From contig CADBQF010000093.1 of assembly GCA_902796705.1 (NCBI GenBank), positions 1 to 11,391 on the forward strand: a DNA stretch of 11,391 bases, read 5' to 3'. The notes beneath the pieces are model-generated. The model was not told the origin of the DNA, searched no databases, and worked only from the letters and a program-made list of their open reading frames with translations. Position numbers and translations under genes: made by a program. Source of the DNA: Ruminococcus flavefaciens (GTDB taxonomy: Bacteria > Bacillota > Clostridia > Oscillospirales > Ruminococcaceae). Within the stretch, counting starts at the first letter, position 1, and every line of letters starts with the position of its first letter. Below, piece after piece: positions 1,495 through 11,373 of the stretch.

Positions 1495-1704
1495 ATGCCA
1501 TTAACATTTGCATCTGTGGGAGAAAAACATACTATCGTCAAGGTAGGAGGAACTCCGGAAGTAAAAAAACATCTCGAAAATCTTGGATTCGTAGCTGGCG
1601 GAGAAGTTTCTGTCGTCAATACGGTAGGCGGCAACCTCATTGTCAATGTCAAAGAGGCAAGAGTTGCTATCAGCCGTGAAATGGCACAGAAGATCGTTAT
1701 CTGA
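1495..1704 (+). CDS. feoA: FeoA-type protein, first copy (divergent Clostridia form)
   Basis: A 69-residue single FeoA domain: a small SH3-like beta-barrel acting in the cytoplasm with the iron transporter FeoB. The pattern is typical of the first of two tandem FeoA proteins in Clostridia: an N-terminal strand (TFASVGE), the helix LENLGF near residue 30, then GNLIVNV followed by RVAIS near the C-terminus. It lacks the APLGDP-type motif of the classical form in the next gene, so the two probably do different jobs. It is first in the feo operon. The stop codon TGA (1702-1704) overlaps the Shine-Dalgarno region of the second feoA, giving tight coupling. The start is set by AGGAGG 7 nt upstream. 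Family assignment is firm; the exact role of this subtype is not known from sequence. Confidence 0.9.
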   Translation: MPLTFASVGEKHTIVKVGGTPEVKKHLENLGFVAGGEVSVVNTVGGNLIVNVKEARVAISREMAQKIVI

Positions 1705-1715
1705 GGAGGAAGAAT

Positions 1716-1934
1716 ATGAATCTTAAAGAAGTCGCAATAGGTGATACAGTCAAGGTGAAGAAGCTTTCAGGCGAGGGTGCTGTTAAACGCCGCATCATGG
1801 ACATGGGCATAACAAAGGGCGTTTCAGTTACAGTCCGCAAAGTCGCACCTCTCGGTGATCCTATCGAGGTAACAGTAAGAGGATATGAGCTTTCTATCCG
1901 CAAAGAGGACGCAGAGAAGATCGAAGTCGAATAA
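1716..1934 (+). CDS. feoA: FeoA-type protein, second copy (classical form)
   Basis: A 72-residue FeoA domain in the classical pattern: basic and hydrophobic N-terminal strands, the helix VKRRIMDMGI (about 23-33), then APLGDPIEV (about 44-52), and a final strand YELSIRKEDAEKI. FeoA proteins bind the cytoplasmic side of FeoB and are needed for Fe(II) uptake, probably by modulating its GTPase. The gene starts 11 nt after the first feoA stop, with GAGGAGG just upstream. It is separated from feoB by about 119 nt containing a small hairpin. Assignment is from length, motif and position next to feoB. Confidence 0.93.
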   Translation: MNLKEVAIGDTVKVKKLSGEGAVKRRIMDMGITKGVSVTVRKVAPLGDPIEVTVRGYELSIRKEDAEKIEVE

Positions 1935-1940
1935 TGACTG

Positions 1941-1958
1941 GCTGCCTTTACAGGCAGC
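1941..1958 (+). other. Hairpin between feoA and feoB
   Basis: GCTGCCT (1941-1947) pairs with AGGCAGC (1952-1958) around a TTAC loop, 7 bp perfect, starting 6 nt after the feoA stop. Only a weak T-rich run follows, so it is not a strong terminator. It may protect the 3' end of a processed feoA-feoA message or tune feoB expression relative to feoA. Confidence 0.5.
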
Positions 1959-2053
1959 AATGATTTGATATTGCGTTAGTTATGTATAACATTTAAGTGT
2001 GCAGTCTCCGCAAGCTCAAAACGGACTCTGCAAGAAAGAGAGGCATTTTTGCA

Positions 2054-4567
2054 ATGGGTATAAGGATCGCTCTCGCAGGAAACCCTAACTGCGGAAAGAC
2101 CACCCTTTTCAATGCACTGACAGGCTCGAATCAGTTCGTAGGCAACTGGCCGGGCGTTACAGTCGAGAAAAAGGGCGGTAAACTCAAAAAACATGATGAT
2201 GTGGAGATAACAGACCTTCCGGGTATATATTCTCTATCTCCGTATACGCTCGAAGAAGTAGTTGCACGTAATTATCTCATCGGTGAAAGACCTGATGCGA
2301 TACTCAATATCATCGACGGCACTAACCTCGAACGTAACCTCTATCTCACAACTCAGCTCACAGAACTCGGTATCCCGGTAGTATGTGCTGTAAATATGAT
2401 GGACGTTGTCCGCAAGAACGGCGACAAGATCAACTTTGAGCAGCTCTCTAAAGTCCTCGGCTGCAAGGTCATGGAGATATCCGCTCTGAAAAATGAGGGT
2501 ATCATGGAAGCTGCCGATGCTGCTATCGAAGCTGCAAAGAGCGGCAAGACGATCCCGCAGCATACTTTCTCCGGCCCTGTTGAACACTGTCTTGCTCATA
2601 TCGAGGAAGCTGCTGTCCACGACCTTCCGGAAGAGCAGCAGAGATGGTACGCTGTAAAGATCTTCGAGCGTGATGAAAAGGCTCTCGAACAGCTCAAACT
2701 CCCGGAAGAGACAATGAAGCACATCGAGCAGGATATCGCCGCTGTTGAAAAGGAAATGGACGACGATGCAGAATCTATCATCACAAATGAGAGATATACA
2801 TACATCACAAGCATCATCGATAAATGTCTCAAGAAGAAAAACGCAGGTGCTTTATCCACATCTGACAAGATAGACAAGATCGTTACGAACCGCTGGCTCG
2901 GACTTCCGATATTCGCAGTCATCATGTTCCTCGTTTACTGGATAGCAATGGTAGGCGTTGGTGCTGCATCGACTGACTGGGCAAACGACGGACTTTTCGG
3001 TGACGGCTGGCATCTCTTCGGAATGGGTTCAAAGCAGACAGAAGAAGCAGAAGAGGAATTCGGCGATACTTCCGCTATCCTCGACGGCTTTATCGCAAAG
3101 GCAGCAGAGGACGGCTTCGATACGGCTGCTGCTGAAGAAGCTATCGATACAGAAGCTGACGACTTCGATGCTGCTGTTGCAGTAAGTGAACTCAACGCTC
3201 TCATGGAGAACTACAGCGATGATGCTGCTGAGTTCGGATTTGAGCTTGAAGATGAAGAAACTCTCGAAGTAACAGACGAGACAGCAACTATCGCTGACGC
3301 TAAAGAAGCTATCTCGCTCTTTGAAAAATATGAAGGCGGAGTTGATCCGGCTAACTACGGTACATGGGTACCCGGCGTTCCGGTACTCATCGAGAAACTC
3401 CTCGGAGACAACTGCCCTGACTGGCTGCATGGTCTTATCATAGACGGTATCGTTGCCGGTGTAGGTGCTGTACTCGGATTTGTACCGCAGATGCTCGTAC
3501 TCTTCCTCCTCCTTGCATTCCTTGAATCATGCGGATACATGGCAAGGATCGCATTCGTAATGGACAGGATCTTCCGCAAGTTCGGTCTTTCCGGTAAGTC
3601 TTTCATCCCGATCCTCGTCGGAACAGGATGCGGTATCCCCGGTATCATGGCTTCACGTACTATCGAAAACGAGCGTGACCGCCGTATGACTATCATGACA
3701 ACAACATTTATCCCCTGCGGTGCAAAGATGCCTTTCATCGCAATGGTAGCCGGAGCAATATTCGGCGGTTCATCACTCGTAGCAGTATCAGCATACTTCA
3801 TCGGTATGGCATCTATCATCATCTCAGGAATTATCCTGAAGAAGACAAAGATGTTCGCAGGCGATCCGGCACCTTTCGTAATGGAGCTTCCTGCATACCA
3901 TATGCCTACTATCGGAAATCTTCTCCGTTCAATGTGGGAGAGAGGCTGGTCATTCATCAAGAAGGCCGGTACTATAATCCTTCTCTCAACTATCGTTGTA
4001 TGGTTCCTCTCATTCTTCGGAACAGTTGACGGTTCATTCAGAATGCTCGAAGAAGACGAGCTTGACCACAGTATCCTCGCAGTTATCGGAAAGGGCATCG
4101 CATGGATATTCATACCTCTTGGCTGGGGCAACTGGCAGGCTGCTGTTGCATCTATCACAGGTCTTGTTGCCAAGGAGAATATCGTTGGTACAATGGGTAT
4201 CCTCTACGGTGCAGGCGACGGAACAGTTTACCAGACACTTGCAGCTAAGTTCACAGCAGTAACAGGCTTCTCATTCCTCGTGTTCAACCTCCTCTGTGCT
4301 CCCTGCTTCGCAGCTATCGGTGCTATGAAGAGAGAGATGAACAACGCTAAGTGGACATGGTTCGCTATCGGCTATCAGTGCGGATTTGCTTACCTTGTAG
4401 CATTCGTTATAAACCAGCTCGGAACACTCTTCAGCGGCAAGACATCAGCTCTCGGCATCGTTGGAGCAGTTATCGCAGCAGCAATAATCGTATTTGCTGT
4501 ATATATGCTCGTAAGACCTTATAAGGAAGCAACAAAGCTCACAAAGACTGTAAAAGTCACAAAGTAA
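2054..4567 (+). CDS. feoB: Ferrous iron transporter B with acidic insertion
   Basis: An 837-residue inner-membrane Fe(II) transporter. The cytoplasmic N-terminal G domain has all its motifs: GNPNCGKT (9-16), the GVTVE switch region, DLPG (54-57), NMMD (114-117) and SALKNEG (143-149). A helical region follows to about 275, then the membrane domain from about 285. Conserved gate motifs are GTGCGIPG (Cys526) and FIPCGAKMP (Cys555), with CAPC (748-751) near the C-terminus. E. coli FeoB is about 773 residues. The extra length here is mainly an acidic segment at about 326-436 after the first TM helix (about 35 Asp/Glu against 4 Lys), probably outside the membrane. Start: the upstream GTG at 1997 adds 19 residues unlike FeoB, whereas ATG 2054 gives the family N-terminus, with AGAGAGG about 10 nt upstream. 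Codon use (many ATC, CTC, GCT) suggests high expression. Confidence 0.96.
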   Translation: MGIRIALAGNPNCGKTTLFNALTGSNQFVGNWPGVTVEKKGGKLKKHDDVEITDLPGIYSLSPYTLEEVVARNYLIGERPDAILNIIDGTNLERNLYLTTQLTELGIPVVCAVNMMDVVRKNGDKINFEQLSKVLGCKVMEISALKNEGIMEAADAAIEAAKSGKTIPQHTFSGPVEHCLAHIEEAAVHDLPEEQQRWYAVKIFERDEKALEQLKLPEETMKHIEQDIAAVEKEMDDDAESIITNERYTYITSIIDKCLKKKNAGALSTSDKIDKIVTNRWLGLPIFAVIMFLVYWIAMVGVGAASTDWANDGLFGDGWHLFGMGSKQTEEAEEEFGDTSAILDGFIAKAAEDGFDTAAAEEAIDTEADDFDAAVAVSELNALMENYSDDAAEFGFELEDEETLEVTDETATIADAKEAISLFEKYEGGVDPANYGTWVPGVPVLIEKLLGDNCPDWLHGLIIDGIVAGVGAVLGFVPQMLVLFLLLAFLESCGYMARIAFVMDRIFRKFGLSGKSFIPILVGTGCGIPGIMASRTIENERDRRMTIMTTTFIPCGAKMPFIAMVAGAIFGGSSLVAVSAYFIGMASIIISGIILKKTKMFAGDPAPFVMELPAYHMPTIGNLLRSMWERGWSFIKKAGTIILLSTIVVWFLSFFGTVDGSFRMLEEDELDHSILAVIGKGIAWIFIPLGWGNWQAAVASITGLVAKENIVGTMGILYGAGDGTVYQTLAAKFTAVTGFSFLVFNLLCAPCFAAIGAMKREMNNAKWTWFAIGYQCGFAYLVAFVINQLGTLFSGKTSALGIVGAVIAAAIIVFAVYMLVRPYKEATKLTKTVKVTK

Positions 4568-4582
4568 AAGGAGTTGGTACAT

Positions 4583-4735
4583 ATGAGGTGGGTGATCGTG
4601 CTTATCGTTCTTATCGCTGTCGTTGGTTTGATAATATATTCGATGATACGTGACAAGAAACAGGGAAGATCATCTTGCAGCCACGGCTGTCAGAACTGTG
4701 CGATGCACGGACAGTGCCATAAAGGTGCAAAGTAA
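4583..4735 (+). CDS. FeoB-associated Cys-rich membrane protein
   Basis: A 50-residue small protein. Residues 2-22 form one hydrophobic helix (MRWVIVLIVLIAVVG...). A basic stretch (RDKKQGR) follows, then a Cys/His-rich tail of the form CSHGCQNCAMHGQC (four cysteines at about 32, 36, 39 and 45). This matches the FeoB-associated Cys-rich membrane protein family, found next to feoB in many Firmicutes. Its role is unproven, with metal handling at the transporter a reasonable guess. The gene starts 15 nt after the feoB stop, with AAGGAG (4568-4573) 9 nt before the ATG, and is the last gene before the operon terminator. Confidence 0.92.
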   Translation: MRWVIVLIVLIAVVGLIIYSMIRDKKQGRSSCSHGCQNCAMHGQCHKGAK

Positions 4736-4909: not shown

Positions 4910-4923
4910 TTCAATATATTGAA
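4910..4923. promoter_or_regulatory. Palindrome over the -35 box, candidate operator
   Basis: TTCAATATATTGAA is a perfect 14-bp palindrome whose right arm includes most of the -35 hexamer (4919-4924). A dimeric regulator bound here would compete with RNA polymerase. The surroundings are very AT-rich, so chance is possible. Confidence 0.35.
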
Positions 4924-4947
4924 ATTTGAAAAAAATAATGCTATAAT
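4919..4947 (+). promoter_or_regulatory. Promoter of the TPR-like/HSP90-like operon
   Basis: TTGAAA (4919-4924), a 17-nt spacer and a perfect TATAAT (4942-4947) form a good sigma-A promoter. The expected start near 4954 leaves a short leader of about 24 nt before the ATG at 4978. No heat-shock element such as a CIRCE-type inverted repeat is present, so this HSP90-like gene is not obviously under HrcA control. Confidence 0.8.
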
Positions 4948-4977: not shown

Positions 4978-7269
4978 ATGTTCGACGAAAACCAGTTTCG
5001 CATGATGCCAAGAGGCAGCGAAAGATTCAGATATCTGAGGAAGTGCATCGCACAGGCCGACGCAGAAAAAGACTATAAGCTCGCACTGAGACTCAGATTC
5101 CTGTTCATTGAGGAGTCGATATTCGGTGATGACAACTATTCTGCCATTGTTATGTTCCCGGAGTATATGGCTCTTTACGATCAGCACCCAGACCTGCACG
5201 ACAAGTATGATTTCATGTATGCGTTCAAATGGATAATTGAGGATATCCAGAATTTCCCGCAGGTCACTCCGGAAAAGGCAGAGGAGCTTTTCACGGAATT
5301 TGCAAAAAGATGCCGGGAGTACGGCTATTCGCTCCGGGCTATGTATATGAAGCGTGCTGAATACTATATCCCCATAGATGCCGGTAAGTTCAGGAAAAAT
5401 ATGGAACTCTTCCGCAGGGAAGCTTCCGACGAGATGAGCGACGGAACGGCTCACGATCTCGCCCTTGAAGCAAAAGCAGAGATGCTCTTCGGTGATGCTT
5501 CCAAAGCCGTGAGAATGCTCAACGACCAGCTCGCAAGAGGTCTGACAGCTTCTGAAGTGCCGGAGAGAGAATACGGTATCTTTGCAGAAACTCTCACAAG
5601 ACGGGGCGAATTCGCTGCGGCTGAACACTATGCCGATCTTCTTCTGCCTATGATCTCCGGAAAGGGCAATTACCTCATGGAGACAGGATTCGTTCTGCTC
5701 ACCAAGGCTTATACCGATCTGTTCGCAGCTATAAACGTTTTCCGCAGGCATATCCATTTCTATGTTAGCTGCAAGAATACGAGAATGCAGTTCTACTTTG
5801 CGGAGGCGGCTGCAAGGCTTTTCGATAATATCCTCAGCAGCGGCAAGGAGGAGATAAAGCTCGTTCTGCCGGCTGATTTCCCGCTTTACAATATGAAAGG
5901 CACTTACAGTGTCGAACAGCTCAGAGACTATTTCCGGAGCGATGCTCTTTCGTGTGCTGAAAAATTCGATAACTGCTACGGCACGACTTTCTATACAGAC
6001 AAACTCAATGCCGTTTTCCCGGAATCAGCGGAAACGGAGATAACTCTCCCTGCACCGGGCGGCGTTAAGAGAAATCCCGTGACGCTTGCCGTTCCGTATG
6101 TCTCCATGAGCGATCTTCCCGACTTTGACGAGCCGGCTATATGGTTCACGGGCATAAAAGACCTCGAATACAGGGAAAGCACGTTCGAGGACGGCGTACT
6201 TATCGTCGGTGCTGATGATACGGTCACGAACGACCGCATGAGCTTCGTCTTCAAGCCTGTTGAAGATACCGATTTCGGCGGAGAGGAGTTCTATGACAGC
6301 CTCATTTCCGTTCATCGTACAGATCAGGAAAAATACAAACGCATGACGGAGGAATGTAAGGTCATACTCACTATTTCCACAAGATACGATCCCGGCTGTG
6401 AGGAAAGACAGTATCAGCTCCTTCTGAGAGTGGCAGACAGGCTCAATTTCTGTCAGTCGCCGTGTATCGCTGATGTTCCGACTTTCCGCCTGCTCAGCAG
6501 CGATTGGGTGAAATTTCAGGCAAAGAGCAGCCTTGTCCCGGACAGCAAGTATATGTACCAGATAATAACGACCGTATCCGATACTGACGAAGAACTTGTT
6601 GATATCTTTACATCATCGCTCGGCTGCGTCGGTTCGAGGGAGATAGCTGTTCCCGGTGTAACACGCAAAAATGTTCCCCTGATGATAAGAGTCGTCGAGC
6701 AGATAGCTGAAAGCATCGTTACCCTCGGCATAATGAACGATGAGGGCATACCCAACGAGTGCGGCATAACTCTCGATAACGAACTCATTTCGTTCGTCTG
6801 GAGAAAAGCTGCCGAAAGGCACGAAGCCGTCCGCAGCGAAGATGCTGAGATATTCCTCTGCCTGCCCGGAAGAAAGGAAACGGCCCTCAGTGACCTTGAT
6901 GCCGATACGCTCGGAAGCTTTGCTTTCCGTGATTCAAGAAAATGCTACAGGCTCAAGGAGCAGAAAGCCGCAGAGACTTTCACCTATGCAGCCGGATATT
7001 TCCGACAGGCAGAAGATCCTGCTATGATAGTCGGATTTGATATAATAAAAGATGACGGTATACAGACCGTATATGTCAATGCCGACCATTCCGGAAGCGA
7101 GAAGCTCACCGGTACGATATTCGCCGGCGATGACGGCGATATGAGCGGTCAGACGGTAGAGATCAATACCGATACTGTATTCTACTGGCAGCTCCGTGAC
7201 GGAAGCGATGTGTTCAGCTATGATGATGCGTATTATCTCAAAGCTGCGATCGGCGGAGCAAATCAGTAA
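4978..7269 (+). CDS. Large TPR-like protein with DUF2314-like C-terminus, paralogue 1
   Basis: A 763-residue protein with no signal peptide or TM segment, so probably cytoplasmic. Residues 1 to about 330 are helical and repeat-like: a TPR-style pair at 17-50 (RYLRKCIAQAD...) and others near 199-226 (YGIFAETL) and 269-283. The rest is mixed alpha/beta: a strand-rich block at about 365-640, and a final 95 residues (TFTYAAGYF ... VGFD ... FYWQL) that resemble the DUF2314 pattern. The middle may match DUF4026; both names are from memory and tentative. The start is ATG 4978 with GGGAGG 6 nt upstream. An in-frame TTG at 4960 would swallow this site, and the paralogue also begins MFD. First gene of the operon with the HSP90-like ATPase 65 nt downstream and a full-length paralogue after that. 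It could be a co-chaperone or client adaptor (inference). Four cysteines (23, 112, 550, 595) are conserved in the paralogue. Confidence 0.8.
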   Translation: MFDENQFRMMPRGSERFRYLRKCIAQADAEKDYKLALRLRFLFIEESIFGDDNYSAIVMFPEYMALYDQHPDLHDKYDFMYAFKWIIEDIQNFPQVTPEKAEELFTEFAKRCREYGYSLRAMYMKRAEYYIPIDAGKFRKNMELFRREASDEMSDGTAHDLALEAKAEMLFGDASKAVRMLNDQLARGLTASEVPEREYGIFAETLTRRGEFAAAEHYADLLLPMISGKGNYLMETGFVLLTKAYTDLFAAINVFRRHIHFYVSCKNTRMQFYFAEAAARLFDNILSSGKEEIKLVLPADFPLYNMKGTYSVEQLRDYFRSDALSCAEKFDNCYGTTFYTDKLNAVFPESAETEITLPAPGGVKRNPVTLAVPYVSMSDLPDFDEPAIWFTGIKDLEYRESTFEDGVLIVGADDTVTNDRMSFVFKPVEDTDFGGEEFYDSLISVHRTDQEKYKRMTEECKVILTISTRYDPGCEERQYQLLLRVADRLNFCQSPCIADVPTFRLLSSDWVKFQAKSSLVPDSKYMYQIITTVSDTDEELVDIFTSSLGCVGSREIAVPGVTRKNVPLMIRVVEQIAESIVTLGIMNDEGIPNECGITLDNELISFVWRKAAERHEAVRSEDAEIFLCLPGRKETALSDLDADTLGSFAFRDSRKCYRLKEQKAAETFTYAAGYFRQAEDPAMIVGFDIIKDDGIQTVYVNADHSGSEKLTGTIFAGDDGDMSGQTVEINTDTVFYWQLRDGSDVFSYDDAYYLKAAIGGANQ

Positions 7270-7283
7270 TTTAACTTGCATTA

Positions 7284-7310
7284 TTCAGGGGCGGCTTGAC
7301 CGCCTCTGAA
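7284..7310 (+). other. Strong hairpin between paralogue 1 and the HSP90-like gene
   Basis: TTCAGGGGCGG (7284-7294) pairs with CCGCCTCTGAA (7300-7310), 11 bp with one G-T pair, around the loop CTTGA. The sequence after it is ATTATATTG, not a T-tract, so full termination is unlikely. Partial termination or 3'-end protection could set the first protein above the two downstream genes. Confidence 0.6.
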
Positions 7311-7334
7311 ATTATATTGAACTAAGGAGGTCCT

Positions 7335-9089
7335 ATGGAAGACTTTAAATTCAGCGTCGATCTCGGCGGAATGATAGACATACTCTCAAATCACCTGTAC
7401 AGCACTCCTGTCGTCTTTTTGCGTGAACTTCTGCAAAATGCCGTCGATGCTGTAAGTATGCGTAAAAAAACTGACAGCTCTTTTGATGCACCTGAAATAA
7501 ATATCACGGTGAGCGAAAATGAATCGCTCATTTTTACTGATAACGGCAGCGGTTTGACCGTTGATGAGATACATAAGTTCATCTCGGTCATAGGTCAGTC
7601 CTCGAAGCGTGAGGACAAGTCTTCGTTTATAGGCAGATTCGGCATAGGGCTCCTCTCGTGCTTCATCGTGACTGACGAGATAATCCTCCGCAGCCGTTCT
7701 GTGAAGACTCCCGATAAAGTCCACGAATGGCACGGCTTCTCGAACGGAAGATATTCCGTCACCGAGATCGAGAGCGATATCGGAATCGGCACGGAGATAA
7801 TCATACGTTCTGACGAGGAACACAGGGAGCTTTTCAATGCTGCCGATATACTCAAACATATCAGATATTACGGACTCCCGATACCTTACCCGATATATGT
7901 ATCTTCCGGAAACGGCCTGAAGCTCATGGCTAATGCACAGTTCATAAATACAGCAAAGACACACGAGGGCATACTTCGCTCCGGAAAGATGATATTCGGC
8001 ACTGAGACTGACTATGTTGACTATATCCCCCTTGAATCAGAGAACGGACTTTTCAGCGGTGCAGCGTATATTCTGCCTTATACGGTATCGGCTGCATCAA
8101 AGAGCCGCCACAGGATATATCTCAAAAATATGCTCCTGACCGAGGACGGAAGCTCTATCCTCCCGGAGTGGGCATTTTTCCTCCAGTGCTTCATAAATAC
8201 GGATAAGCTCCAGCCGACGGCTTCGAGAGAGGATTTCTACCAGGATACGCTCCTCATGCAGGCAAAGGAGGAGATAGGCGAGTGCATCGCTGATTATCTG
8301 GAGGAACTTTCCCTGCGTGATCCGAAGATGCTCGCAAAGATAGTCGATCTTCACGGTACGGCACTTAAATCCGTCGCTGTCGAGAATGACAAGCTCTTTG
8401 ATATATTCATGCCGTACTTCATATTTGAGACGAGCCTCGGCAACCTCACCGGAAAAGAACTTGCCTCATGGGAGAAAGAGATATACTACACGCCGAGCAT
8501 AGATGTTTTCAGGCAGCTCCGTCCTGTTTTTGCGGAAAAGTTTGAACTCATCGTCAATGTGGGATATGTCCATGAACGCAGTCTTGTGGAGAAACTCAAT
8601 GAAAAGGGAGAAGCCCATGCGGAACTTCTCCGTGACGATCTTCTTGCCGAACTCCTTGAAGACGAGACAGACGAGGAGCGTTTCAGCTTTATGAGAAAAA
8701 TATTCACCGATGCCCTCTCCGGATATGACTGCAAGGTCATGATAAAGCGTTTCTCACCGCCGCAGCTCGCATCGCTCTATACTATCAACACCGACGGCGA
8801 ACTAAAGCGTGACATTGAACATTCAAAGGAGAACGGCGACAGCCTTTTCTCGGATATGCTCGACGCTTTCAGTGAGGAGATAGACGAGACAGCATCTTCT
8901 ATCCTCTACCTCAACAGCACGAACGACCTGATAAAGAAGCTCTCAGCTTCGCAGGACAGCGAAAAGCTCGGAGTCTTCGCACTCATACTCTATGTCCAGT
9001 CGCTCATATCGGGCGGTTTTCCGGTCTACGGAAAAGAAATGAACATCATGAACGAAAACCTTATAAAGCTCATAGAATGGGGGATATGA
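7335..9089 (+). CDS. Non-canonical HSP90-family protein (GHKL ATPase)
   Basis: A 584-residue protein of the short HSP90-family branch, distinct from HtpG. The Bergerat ATP site is intact: FLRELLQNAVDA (28-39; Glu31 as the likely catalytic base, Asn35 for Mg-ATP), DNGSGLT (69-75), the lid region near 84-91, GRFGIGLLSCF (100-110) and GTEII (152-156). In the middle domain TASRED (295-300) matches the SRE motif whose arginine (here Arg298) contacts the ATP gamma-phosphate in HSP90s. The region after about 340 is unlike the usual HSP90 dimerisation domain and is shorter than in HtpG (about 620-630 residues). No signal or TM segment is seen. Start: ATG 7335 follows TAAGGAGGT (7323-7331) at a short 3-4 nt spacing; no other start keeps the conserved N-terminus. 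Flanked on both sides by paralogous TPR-like proteins. Family assignment is firm; clients are unknown. Confidence 0.92.
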   Translation: MEDFKFSVDLGGMIDILSNHLYSTPVVFLRELLQNAVDAVSMRKKTDSSFDAPEINITVSENESLIFTDNGSGLTVDEIHKFISVIGQSSKREDKSSFIGRFGIGLLSCFIVTDEIILRSRSVKTPDKVHEWHGFSNGRYSVTEIESDIGIGTEIIIRSDEEHRELFNAADILKHIRYYGLPIPYPIYVSSGNGLKLMANAQFINTAKTHEGILRSGKMIFGTETDYVDYIPLESENGLFSGAAYILPYTVSAASKSRHRIYLKNMLLTEDGSSILPEWAFFLQCFINTDKLQPTASREDFYQDTLLMQAKEEIGECIADYLEELSLRDPKMLAKIVDLHGTALKSVAVENDKLFDIFMPYFIFETSLGNLTGKELASWEKEIYYTPSIDVFRQLRPVFAEKFELIVNVGYVHERSLVEKLNEKGEAHAELLRDDLLAELLEDETDEERFSFMRKIFTDALSGYDCKVMIKRFSPPQLASLYTINTDGELKRDIEHSKENGDSLFSDMLDAFSEEIDETASSILYLNSTNDLIKKLSASQDSEKLGVFALILYVQSLISGGFPVYGKEMNIMNENLIKLIEWGI

Positions 9090-9090
9090 T

Positions 9091-11373
9091 ATGTTTGACG
9101 CAGTATATTTTTCCAGCATCTCAGACCTTGAAGAACAGCTCAGGTACCTGAAAAAGTGCATAGCAGAAGCCGACAGCTCCCAGGACTGGAATGCCGCTTT
9201 CGAGCTTCGCTACAAGTATATCAAACAGTCTTTTTTTGCCGATGACAAATTCAAGGCCCTCGTCATTTTCCCGGAGGTATCGAAGCTTTTTGACGATCAT
9301 CAGGACGTGCTTTCCGGCAGAACGCAGTCATTCATGATAATATACAAGTGGATAGTCGAAGCCACGAGGGATTTCTTTGTTATCCCTATGGAAACGTGCA
9401 TGAAGTATTTCGATGAATTCAAACGCCGCTGCGAGCTGTACGGCTACAGCATGAGGACGTATCATATGAAGCTCATGCAGTTCTTTGAGAGCATCGACAA
9501 GAAAAAGGCTATTGAATATCAGCATTATTTCCGCCGTGAGGAACGTGACAGATTAAGCGACTGCGAAGCCTGCGAGATGAATTCCGATATCTTCATGGAA
9601 CTCAATTACGGCAGCGAGGAAAAGGCTGTCCGTATGCTTCACGATATGCAGCGGAGAGGCATCTCCTGTGCCGAGATACCGGAGTGTACATACGGAACGT
9701 TCATAGAGCATTTCATCAAAAAGGGCAATATAGATGAAGCTGAATATTACGGCGACCTCCTCACAGGTATCATTGACCAGAAAAACGAATCGTTCCTTGA
9801 TGAGTTCGCAAGGCTTATCCTACTGTATACGTATACCGATCCGAATGCGGCTCTTGATATGTTCATAAGGCATCTTCCGGCTTATATCCGCATAAAGAAC
9901 AACAGAATGAAGTTCAACTTTGCAGATGCAGCGGCAAGATTCTTTGAAAAGATAGCTGTGAAGAATGAGACTGTATTTGCTGTCCTGCCGAAGACTTTCG
10001 AGCTGTACAAAGAGGACAACGAATACGTTACAGCAGAACTTGCGAAGTATTTCAAGGAAACTGCTGCCGCTATCGCAGTTAAATTCGATGAGAGGAACGG
10101 TACATCATTCTATAAAGATGAACTGGAATTCGTATATCCCGCCGAGCCTGTGAACGATGTAAGCCTGCCGGCTCACGGAAAAGTACGTTCAGTGGAATTC
10201 ACAGCATCAGTTCTCTTCAAAACTCAGGAAGACCTGCCCTCTCCGGACGATATCCTCAAAGTGTTCGTGGAGTCGGATATCCTTGAAGTAACGACCTGCG
10301 GCTGGGACGAAAATGACCTTATCATAAAATGCAGCATAAAAGACAGCGATACAGAGGCGAGATTCCGTATAATACCGCATGAAGCCCCTGATCCGGAGAG
10401 CATGAGGACTTTCCACTATTTCGAGAGGGAAGAGATAGAGTCAGTCGAAAATGAATACGGCTTTGAGATAGCCATATGTGCCGATCTCAACAACGACAAT
10501 GACGACGCAAAGGAAATGGCTCTGCTGTATATCCTCGAAAAGCTCAATACAGGCGGCTGCCCTGTTGTGTGCGACCTGACGAACAACCGCTATCTCAGCA
10601 GCAAATGGCTCAGCGTACAGATGCAAAGTAATGTCCCTGTTCCGGACAAGTACCTTTTCAGGATAATCCCGTATGTCTCCGAAGAGAGAGAGGATATAGT
10701 CGATATGTATACGACCGGCATGAGATGCTTCGGTACGAGAGACCTCATGGTAATGAATGTTCCGAGGGATAATTATGAAAAGGTCATCGATATACTGGAG
10801 CATATCGGACGCACTCTCTGCAAGATAGAAGATCTGCGTGATTACGGCGAGAAGATACAGTGCGGCATCGTTTACGATCAGAAACGAAGTGCAGAGCTTA
10901 CATGGCGTACAGTGAAAGATGTATATCCCGACAGAGTCATCGAAGGTACGGAAGAATTTGCCGTTCCGATGCTCTATCTCAAAAGCAGCAGAAAAGAATA
11001 TTCTCTTGACGAGATACCGGCGGAAGACCTTGAAAAGATAACGTTCAGAAATTATGCAAGAGCTTCAAATATCAATGAGACAAGATCAAAAGATACTTTC
11101 CCCAGAGCCGCCGAAGCATTCATGGCAGACAGTCAGGCTAAACTCATCGTCGGATTCGATATGCCTGCACCGGAAGATGAGGAGATAAATGCAACGATAT
11201 ACGGAGAAGTTCAGCGTAAGGACGGGGAACTTTCGTGTATAGTGAAAGATGTATATGAGACTGATGAGATCAAAGTTGACGATGAGGTGAAGGTCAATAC
11301 AGAGAAGGTGTTCTACTGGCAGCTTGCGAAAGAGGACGGCCTGTACTTCTACGATGAAGCATATTTATTATAA
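9091..11373 (+). CDS. Large TPR-like protein with DUF2314-like C-terminus, paralogue 2
   Basis: A 760-residue cytoplasmic-looking protein, colinear with paralogue 1 from end to end. About 43 percent of the first 60 residues are identical, with less elsewhere. Shared landmarks are RYLKKCIAEAD (18-28), CELYGYS (114-120), FRRE (147-150), KAVRMLHD (178-185), NNRMKFNFADAAARFFE (270-286), NGTSFYKDEL (336-345), LSSKW (502-506), QCGI (590-593) and FYWQL (741-745). The helical N-terminal half and DUF2314-like tail (about 668-760) match paralogue 1, whose tail is nine residues longer. The ATG is one base after the HSP90-like stop (TGATATG), with only a G-run (9079-9083) as ribosome site, so translational coupling is likely. 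Divergence despite full-length conservation suggests an old duplication and distinct roles, perhaps a heteromeric complex with the ATPase (inference). The stop is 18 bases from the window end; no terminator is visible. Confidence 0.82.
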   Translation: MFDAVYFSSISDLEEQLRYLKKCIAEADSSQDWNAAFELRYKYIKQSFFADDKFKALVIFPEVSKLFDDHQDVLSGRTQSFMIIYKWIVEATRDFFVIPMETCMKYFDEFKRRCELYGYSMRTYHMKLMQFFESIDKKKAIEYQHYFRREERDRLSDCEACEMNSDIFMELNYGSEEKAVRMLHDMQRRGISCAEIPECTYGTFIEHFIKKGNIDEAEYYGDLLTGIIDQKNESFLDEFARLILLYTYTDPNAALDMFIRHLPAYIRIKNNRMKFNFADAAARFFEKIAVKNETVFAVLPKTFELYKEDNEYVTAELAKYFKETAAAIAVKFDERNGTSFYKDELEFVYPAEPVNDVSLPAHGKVRSVEFTASVLFKTQEDLPSPDDILKVFVESDILEVTTCGWDENDLIIKCSIKDSDTEARFRIIPHEAPDPESMRTFHYFEREEIESVENEYGFEIAICADLNNDNDDAKEMALLYILEKLNTGGCPVVCDLTNNRYLSSKWLSVQMQSNVPVPDKYLFRIIPYVSEEREDIVDMYTTGMRCFGTRDLMVMNVPRDNYEKVIDILEHIGRTLCKIEDLRDYGEKIQCGIVYDQKRSAELTWRTVKDVYPDRVIEGTEEFAVPMLYLKSSRKEYSLDEIPAEDLEKITFRNYARASNINETRSKDTFPRAAEAFMADSQAKLIVGFDMPAPEDEEINATIYGEVQRKDGELSCIVKDVYETDEIKVDDEVKVNTEKVFYWQLAKEDGLYFYDEAYLL

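Follow-up and report, generated by a model that had tools for sequence, protein, structure and literature searches.

Does an HSP90-type ATPase encoded between two genes for paralogous repeat proteins form, together with them, a chaperone system of its own? The question is raised by a contig of Ruminococcus flavefaciens (CADBQF010000093.1, here C93, from a 2.27-Mb genome in 441 contigs), whose full 11,391 nucleotides we call the window. Three co-directional open reading frames (ORFs) in it encode protein A of 763 amino acids (aa), the ATPase (584 aa), and protein A' (760 aa). A' starts one base past the ATPase stop codon, and A and A' share 33% identity along their full length (770 aligned columns), which bears out the initial annotation of this DNA as regards the common direction of the genes and the full-length paralogy of A and A'. 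From the surveys described here, we conclude that the ATPase and the A family constitute a co-inherited HSP90-TPR (tetratricopeptide repeat) module. Given the layout, family membership, catalytic residues, predicted folds, and co-inheritance, we further consider it probable that this is a self-contained chaperone module, in which the ATPase works with a dedicated TPR protein.

The ATPase and its gene neighborhood

The window ATPase aligns nearly end to end (residues 5 to 583) with the NCBIfam model NF010683 (PRK14083), termed "HSP90 family protein," and scores 556 bits, above the curated cut-off of 455. It shares its fold, domain order, and catalytic residues with HtpG, but it falls under the HtpG cut-off (NF003555; 158 bits vs. 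371). A full Hsp90 fold is predicted, with the N-terminal, middle, and C-terminal domains all present. The residues E31, N35, D38, D69, G71, G73, G100, G103, G105, S297, R298, and E299 are invariant in 47 aligned sequences; the roles of the ATP-site residues and of the catalytic arginine in the middle domain are known from other Hsp90s. The same genome carries a second HSP90 gene on contig C313, which we take to be HtpG-type from its PF00183 score (382 bits) and the length of its frame (658 aa). By its sequence, the window ATPase is thus a complete clamp of the HSP90 family that belongs to the NF010683 clade and differs from the genome's HtpG-type gene on C313. The NF010683 cut-off was also passed in the controls Corynebacterium glutamicum and Deinobacterium chartae. 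The family name is silent on any partner; the recurring TPR neighbor described below is what we add to it.

A contig scan with one genome per species yielded at least 579 confirmed stretches with homologues of the ATPase, the best 80 of which were kept as the locus set; the nearest relatives in named collections were metagenome-assembled genomes (MAGs) of Ruminococcus, Ruminiclostridium, and Oscillospiraceae type. An A-family ORF was present in 70 of the 80 loci, in all 70 on the same strand as the ATPase. In 63 of them it lay within 100 nt, downstream in 61 and upstream in 2; the remaining ORFs were found less than 400 nt downstream (3 loci), within 2 kb (3 loci), or at 7.4 kb (1 locus). These counts were taken on stop-to-stop stretches, so the gaps are slightly smaller than start-based ones. 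A tabulation of the neighbors of such ATPases had been proposed in the initial annotation as a check on the module, and its outcome is positive.

The number and size of the A genes vary: 18 loci have one short gene (~350 aa), 19 have one long gene, 24 have a short and a long gene, and the remainder have other sets, although these classes are rough because contig edges truncate some A genes. At least two A stretches of more than 200 aa occur in 31 of the 80 loci. Usually, one or more TPR genes (short, long, or of both kinds) come after the ATPase gene, and the A-ATPase-A' sandwich is local. The self-contained module envisaged at the outset is retained as far as recurring adjacency and co-presence of ATPase and A are concerned, whereas the sandwich itself does not generalize. 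No natural ATPase-TPR fusion was accepted; the apparent case in L129 proved to be an ATPase gene whose coding sequence is interrupted, leaving two frames.

Co-inheritance across genomes

In the genomes searched for an A that does not adjoin the ATPase, it is found elsewhere. These nine genomes (those of eight of the ten A-less loci and of L109, in which A lies far from the ATPase; the L072 and L101 genomes were left out because of a contig edge) each contained one or more A matches that run without interruption over nearly the full profile. We then considered three genome samples, in each of which the window's own genome is counted: 257 genomes of its family, 398 of its phylum, and a set of 61. 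In the first two, presence of the ATPase was scored at E 1e-90, a threshold set to exclude HtpG, which fragments may escape. The ATPase was detected in 15 of the 257 family genomes (14 above cut-off) and A in 17, and every genome with the ATPase also had A (Fisher p 2e-22, without correction for kinship). Among the 398 phylum genomes, the ATPase was detected in 6, and strong A matches occurred in the same 6 (matches in G231 and G372, with E ~1e-5, were set aside as generic TPR matches). In the 61-genome sample, 49 genomes had an HSP90-type match, and A was limited to five NF010683-type genomes and G030; among the 44 genomes with an HSP90-type match but no NF010683-type gene, A was found in G030 alone, as a decayed gene (L156 2958-4038). 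Thus, A tracks the NF010683-type ATPase and not HtpG-type genes. Some genomes are present under two handles (G460 and G516 share coordinates), so the nine-genome search overlaps the 257-genome sample. Homologues occurring mostly without these partners had been named beforehand as the outcome that would speak against a module; what we found is A beside the ATPase in 70 of 80 loci and A in the same genome in 9 of 9 non-adjacent cases, 15 of 15 family genomes, and 6 of 6 phylum genomes.

Could chance neighborhood or shared ancestry alone, with no joint function, produce this pattern? Adjacency must be partly inherited, because many of the 80 loci are from related MAGs, and common ancestry would be expected to make the identities of ATPase and TPR proteins correlate, as they do (r 0.90). 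However, co-presence outlasts lost adjacency, as the nine genomes demonstrate, and spans separate lineages, and the sole A gene among the 44 genomes mentioned above is the decayed one. We therefore regard this explanation as very improbable.

Several observations nevertheless weigh against a module. Ten of the 80 loci have no A in the fetched stretch. Downstream sequence is short in L072, L101, and L107 (merely 75, 67, and 337 nt), longer in L105 and L102 (~2 kb) and in L103 (~5 kb), and L040, L051, L052, and L111 offer ~8 kb without A. One of the 15 ATPases in the family sample, that of G049, is distributed over two frames and scores below the cut-off, and 2 of the 17 genomes with A (G593, whose A gene is intact, and G030, whose A gene is decayed) have no ATPase match at the threshold used. 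A MEEVD-like tail is absent from the ATPases: the C termini of 26 sequences end in LIEWG(I) or in lineage-specific tails. Finally, the 80 loci are the best of at least 579 stretches and are not independent, because they come mostly from Ruminococcus-type MAGs.

Beyond the close relatives, TPR relatives of A are encoded immediately next to the ATPase in Paenibacillus cellulosilyticus and in a Listeria record, which has two tandem copies. Further ATPase-adjacent relatives were found in five genomes of one family (one of them with two copies), on three plasmids from Streptomyces, where the ORFs span 1033-1143 aa, and on one gut contig labeled phage; the Streptomyces globosus partner aligned over 329 columns with 99.7% probability. 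The Listeria gene is presumably lmo0942, both lying ~202 nt from fri; in the portions of two papers in which it appears, lmo0942 is a list or table entry. In the Listeria locus (L119), the two tandem TPR genes are followed by a SUKH (SMI1/KNR4) gene at 9882-10628.

A similar pair was found in Gammaproteobacteria: a Pseudomonas aeruginosa plasmid, a Xanthomonas plasmid, and a Salmonella contig each encode an HSP90-like ATPase and, directly downstream, a protein of 764-774 aa. The gene order is the same, but the two ATPases scored are under the NF010683 cut-off (293 and 286 bits in L173 and L124), and they may deserve a separate family. Their partners have weak TPR matches, all under Pfam cut-offs, and the Xanthomonas partner is annotated as a TPR protein. 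Membership of the Salmonella partner in the A family was not supported, its kinship to A being undetectable. The tags PA1068 and PA1069, which are not tied to the P. aeruginosa record, led to two papers: in one, PA1068 is a strain number, and in the available part of the other, PA1069 has a lowered value in a heat-shock expression table.

The TPR proteins and their possible role

The initial annotation described the N-terminal halves of A and A' as helical repeats, and this description holds: positions 4987-6012 in A match the TPR-family profile A3 (E 1.3e-89), and residues 1-350 of A' are predicted to form a TPR superhelix, a usual partner-binding fold. A TPR superhelical fold is accordingly assigned to the A family. 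No Pfam TPR model scored above its cut-off in A or A'; A' matches the PPR model TIGR00756 (21.3 vs. a cut-off of 20), and the Listeria relative of A matches TPR_8 (26.1 vs. 25.7).

The C-terminal halves resemble DUF4026. In A', DUF4026_N (PF13218) and DUF4026_C (PF22789) were detected with E values of 1.4e-5 and 8.2e-4, the scores of 25.7 and 20.3 bits being under the Pfam cut-off of 27; in A, DUF4026_N was detected at E 0.0032 and 18 bits, again under the cut-off of 27. Among 55 A-family members, DUF4026_N, DUF4026_C, and DUF2314 were found in the C-terminal half of 28, 16, and 6, respectively (E ≤ 0.01). Because their relatives match better (best E 5.1e-20), we consider the C-terminal halves of A and A' to be related to DUF4026, without filing them as members. 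DUF4026 and DUF2314 (PF10077) thus resemble the C-terminal half of long A proteins, where they are joined to a TPR half. This part varies among lineages: Oscillospiraceae-type genomes have a DUF4026/DUF2314-like version and Streptomyces a longer one with further TPR repeats, and it is missing in Listeria, Paenibacillus, and some Clostridia. Across all lineages seen, sequence comparison identifies the TPR half as the part that is kept.

In the portion seen of a tree of TPR halves (FastTree, midpoint root, read without branch supports), the tandem copies in Listeria, G165, and G547 cluster by genome, which suggests repeated duplication of the TPR gene next to a single ATPase gene. The L039 partner has the smallest tree distance to A' (0.83), and A is farther from all others (nearest 1.43).

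The A proteins diverge faster than the ATPase, with a median identity of 28% vs. 44% (3081 pairs from 79 loci), as clients may. On the one hand, the TPR proteins could be clients: the ATPase would fold or activate them as their private chaperone, and the actual work would fall to the TPR protein, including its DUF4026-like half. This reading fits the faster divergence of A nearly as well as an adaptor role does, and it is consistent with the ratio of one ATPase to one to three TPR genes and with the finding that, apart from these two, every gene family is confined to 15 or fewer of the 80 loci. On the other hand, the constant part is the TPR half, while the putative effector half is missing in Listeria, Paenibacillus, and several Clostridia, and G593 retains a lone intact long A gene (778 aa; L169 1846-4182) with no ATPase match. 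We consider a client relationship unlikely.

A stress or conflict device, for example against phages, in which the HSP90-type ATPase restrains a TPR sensor or effector, seems more improbable still. The distribution of the ATPase is indeed patchy (15 of 257 family genomes; three further congeneric genomes gave no match), recombinase-like ORFs were seen by eye near L126 and L170, and the SUKH gene after the Listeria TPR genes would fit such a device, as would DUF2314, an immunity family of polymorphic-toxin loci according to a section of PMC3482391. However, the PADLOC matches of the ATPase (11 families, including the TmtA and REase_II models) are partial and limited to the ATPase domain, and neither A nor A' has any at E ≤ 1. 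A toxin or nuclease family common to the neighborhoods was not seen, most neighbors being unannotated, and the Listeria copy sits among ordinary annotated genes.

An adaptor or co-chaperone role of the TPR protein is the reading we prefer; in it, we infer contact between the proteins and client binding by the C-terminal half. Most likely, the TPR superhelix would dock on the Hsp90 clamp without a MEEVD tail, and the lineage-variable C-terminal part, or the groove of the superhelix, would pick clients or partners. Tandem TPR duplicates would then supply several adaptors for one clamp, and A and A' would be one such set, choosing differently. In its full form, this scheme is tentative, and we place it somewhat below an even chance: bacteria of at least two phyla would possess a second HSP90 machine equipped with dedicated TPR co-chaperones and MEEVD-free docking, in which the TPR half stays constant while swaps of the C-terminal half and TPR duplicates retarget one clamp.

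The biology of eukaryotic HSP90 is dominated by TPR co-chaperones such as Hop/Sti1, FKBP51/52, PP5, and Tom70. In contrast to that system, the window ATPase has no MEEVD tail and its partner gene adjoins the ATPase gene; sequence kinship of A to Hop and the others is not shown. According to passages of PMC7688965, a Hop ortholog is absent from bacteria, and PMC8957991 states, in the part available, that HtpG cooperates with DnaK and CbpA. The accessible parts of both papers treat bacterial Hsp90 as a partner of the DnaK system and leave a bacterial TPR partner unmentioned. In our search of the open-access literature, with subscription papers and preprints outside it, no description of an HSP90-TPR system with an NF010683 ATPase appeared among the papers listed. 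A second HSP90-type gene that travels with a TPR partner, in relatives as well as in some distant bacteria, points to a dedicated chaperone machine in bacteria, a type familiar mainly from eukaryotes. If so, the HSP90-TPR partnership would not be a eukaryotic invention, or it would have arisen more than once, as the parallel gammaproteobacterial pair may indicate. The compact gene pair in culturable Paenibacillus, Streptomyces, and Geosporobacter would offer a two-gene test system, and the present loci provide a first genomic context for NF010683, the A-type TPR family, and DUF4026.

Features of the window and other neighboring genes

The features of the module and the gammaproteobacterial pairs are listed in the table. 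The promoter-like site before A was found in a consensus scan that returned 13 sites in the region vs. 9.9 expected in shuffles, and a single promoter for all three genes, as initially annotated, is unproven. The hairpin between A and the ATPase gene is a possible attenuator-like, terminator-like, or processing site.

Table. Positions of the module's features in the window and of the gammaproteobacterial gene pairs in their own loci
Feature	Position	Strand	Basis
Promoter-like site before A, TTGAAA-17-TATAAT, TG ahead of the -10	4919..4947	+	Consensus scan, 11/12 matches
Protein A, 763 aa; N half TPR-like (~4987-6012), C half DUF4026-like	4978..7269	+	ORF
11-bp hairpin between A and ATPase gene, without clean T run	7284..7310	+	Fold z -2.85
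HSP90-family ATPase, 584 aa, NF010683	7335..9089	+	Profile match
E31	7425-7427	+	ATPase residue
D69	7539-7541	+	ATPase residue
GRFGIG	7632-7649	+	ATPase motif
SRE-loop Arg298	8226-8228	+	ATPase residue
A' residues 1-350, TPR superhelix, end near family motif KFDxRNG	9091..10140	+	Predicted fold
A' residues 351-760, alpha/beta half related to DUF4026_N and DUF4026_C (DUF2314 in some relatives)	10141..11373	+	Pfam matches under cut-offs
Gammaproteobacterial ATPase and downstream gene, L173	5881-10122		
Gammaproteobacterial ATPase and downstream gene, L174	5947-10170		
Gammaproteobacterial ATPase and downstream gene, L124	5971-10118		

A link to cyclic di-GMP was considered and not used as evidence: GGDEF genes lie near 15 of the 80 loci vs. 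~6.8 expected in the 1.09 Mb of loci (background of 322 matches in 20 genomes, 51.4 Mb), an excess that is twofold and clade-bound. Pfam confirmed GGDEF in all 7 of the 15 loci that were scanned; HD-GYP-like genes lie near 10 loci, and HD_5 was confirmed in all 4 of these that were scanned. GGDEF genes are directly 5' of the ATPase gene in L054, L056, L058, L064, L087, and others, and two genes upstream in L048-L050; they include a type with a LacI-type binding domain and, downstream of the ATPase in L043, a FIST-GGDEF protein.

An ORF of ~125 aa directly follows the long A gene in 10 of the 80 loci (L054 13953-14333 and nine others), with an N-terminal hydrophobic stretch in L064. In four related loci (L054, L055, L064, and L068), another gene separates the short TPR gene from the long one; its product in L054 (10870-11694) has a MazE-like N terminus above the Pfam cut-off. 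In the window itself, the region 5' of the module (1495-4735) contains a FeoA-like ORF (recognized by eye), FeoB, and a cysteine-rich ORF of 50 aa with a hydrophobic stretch.
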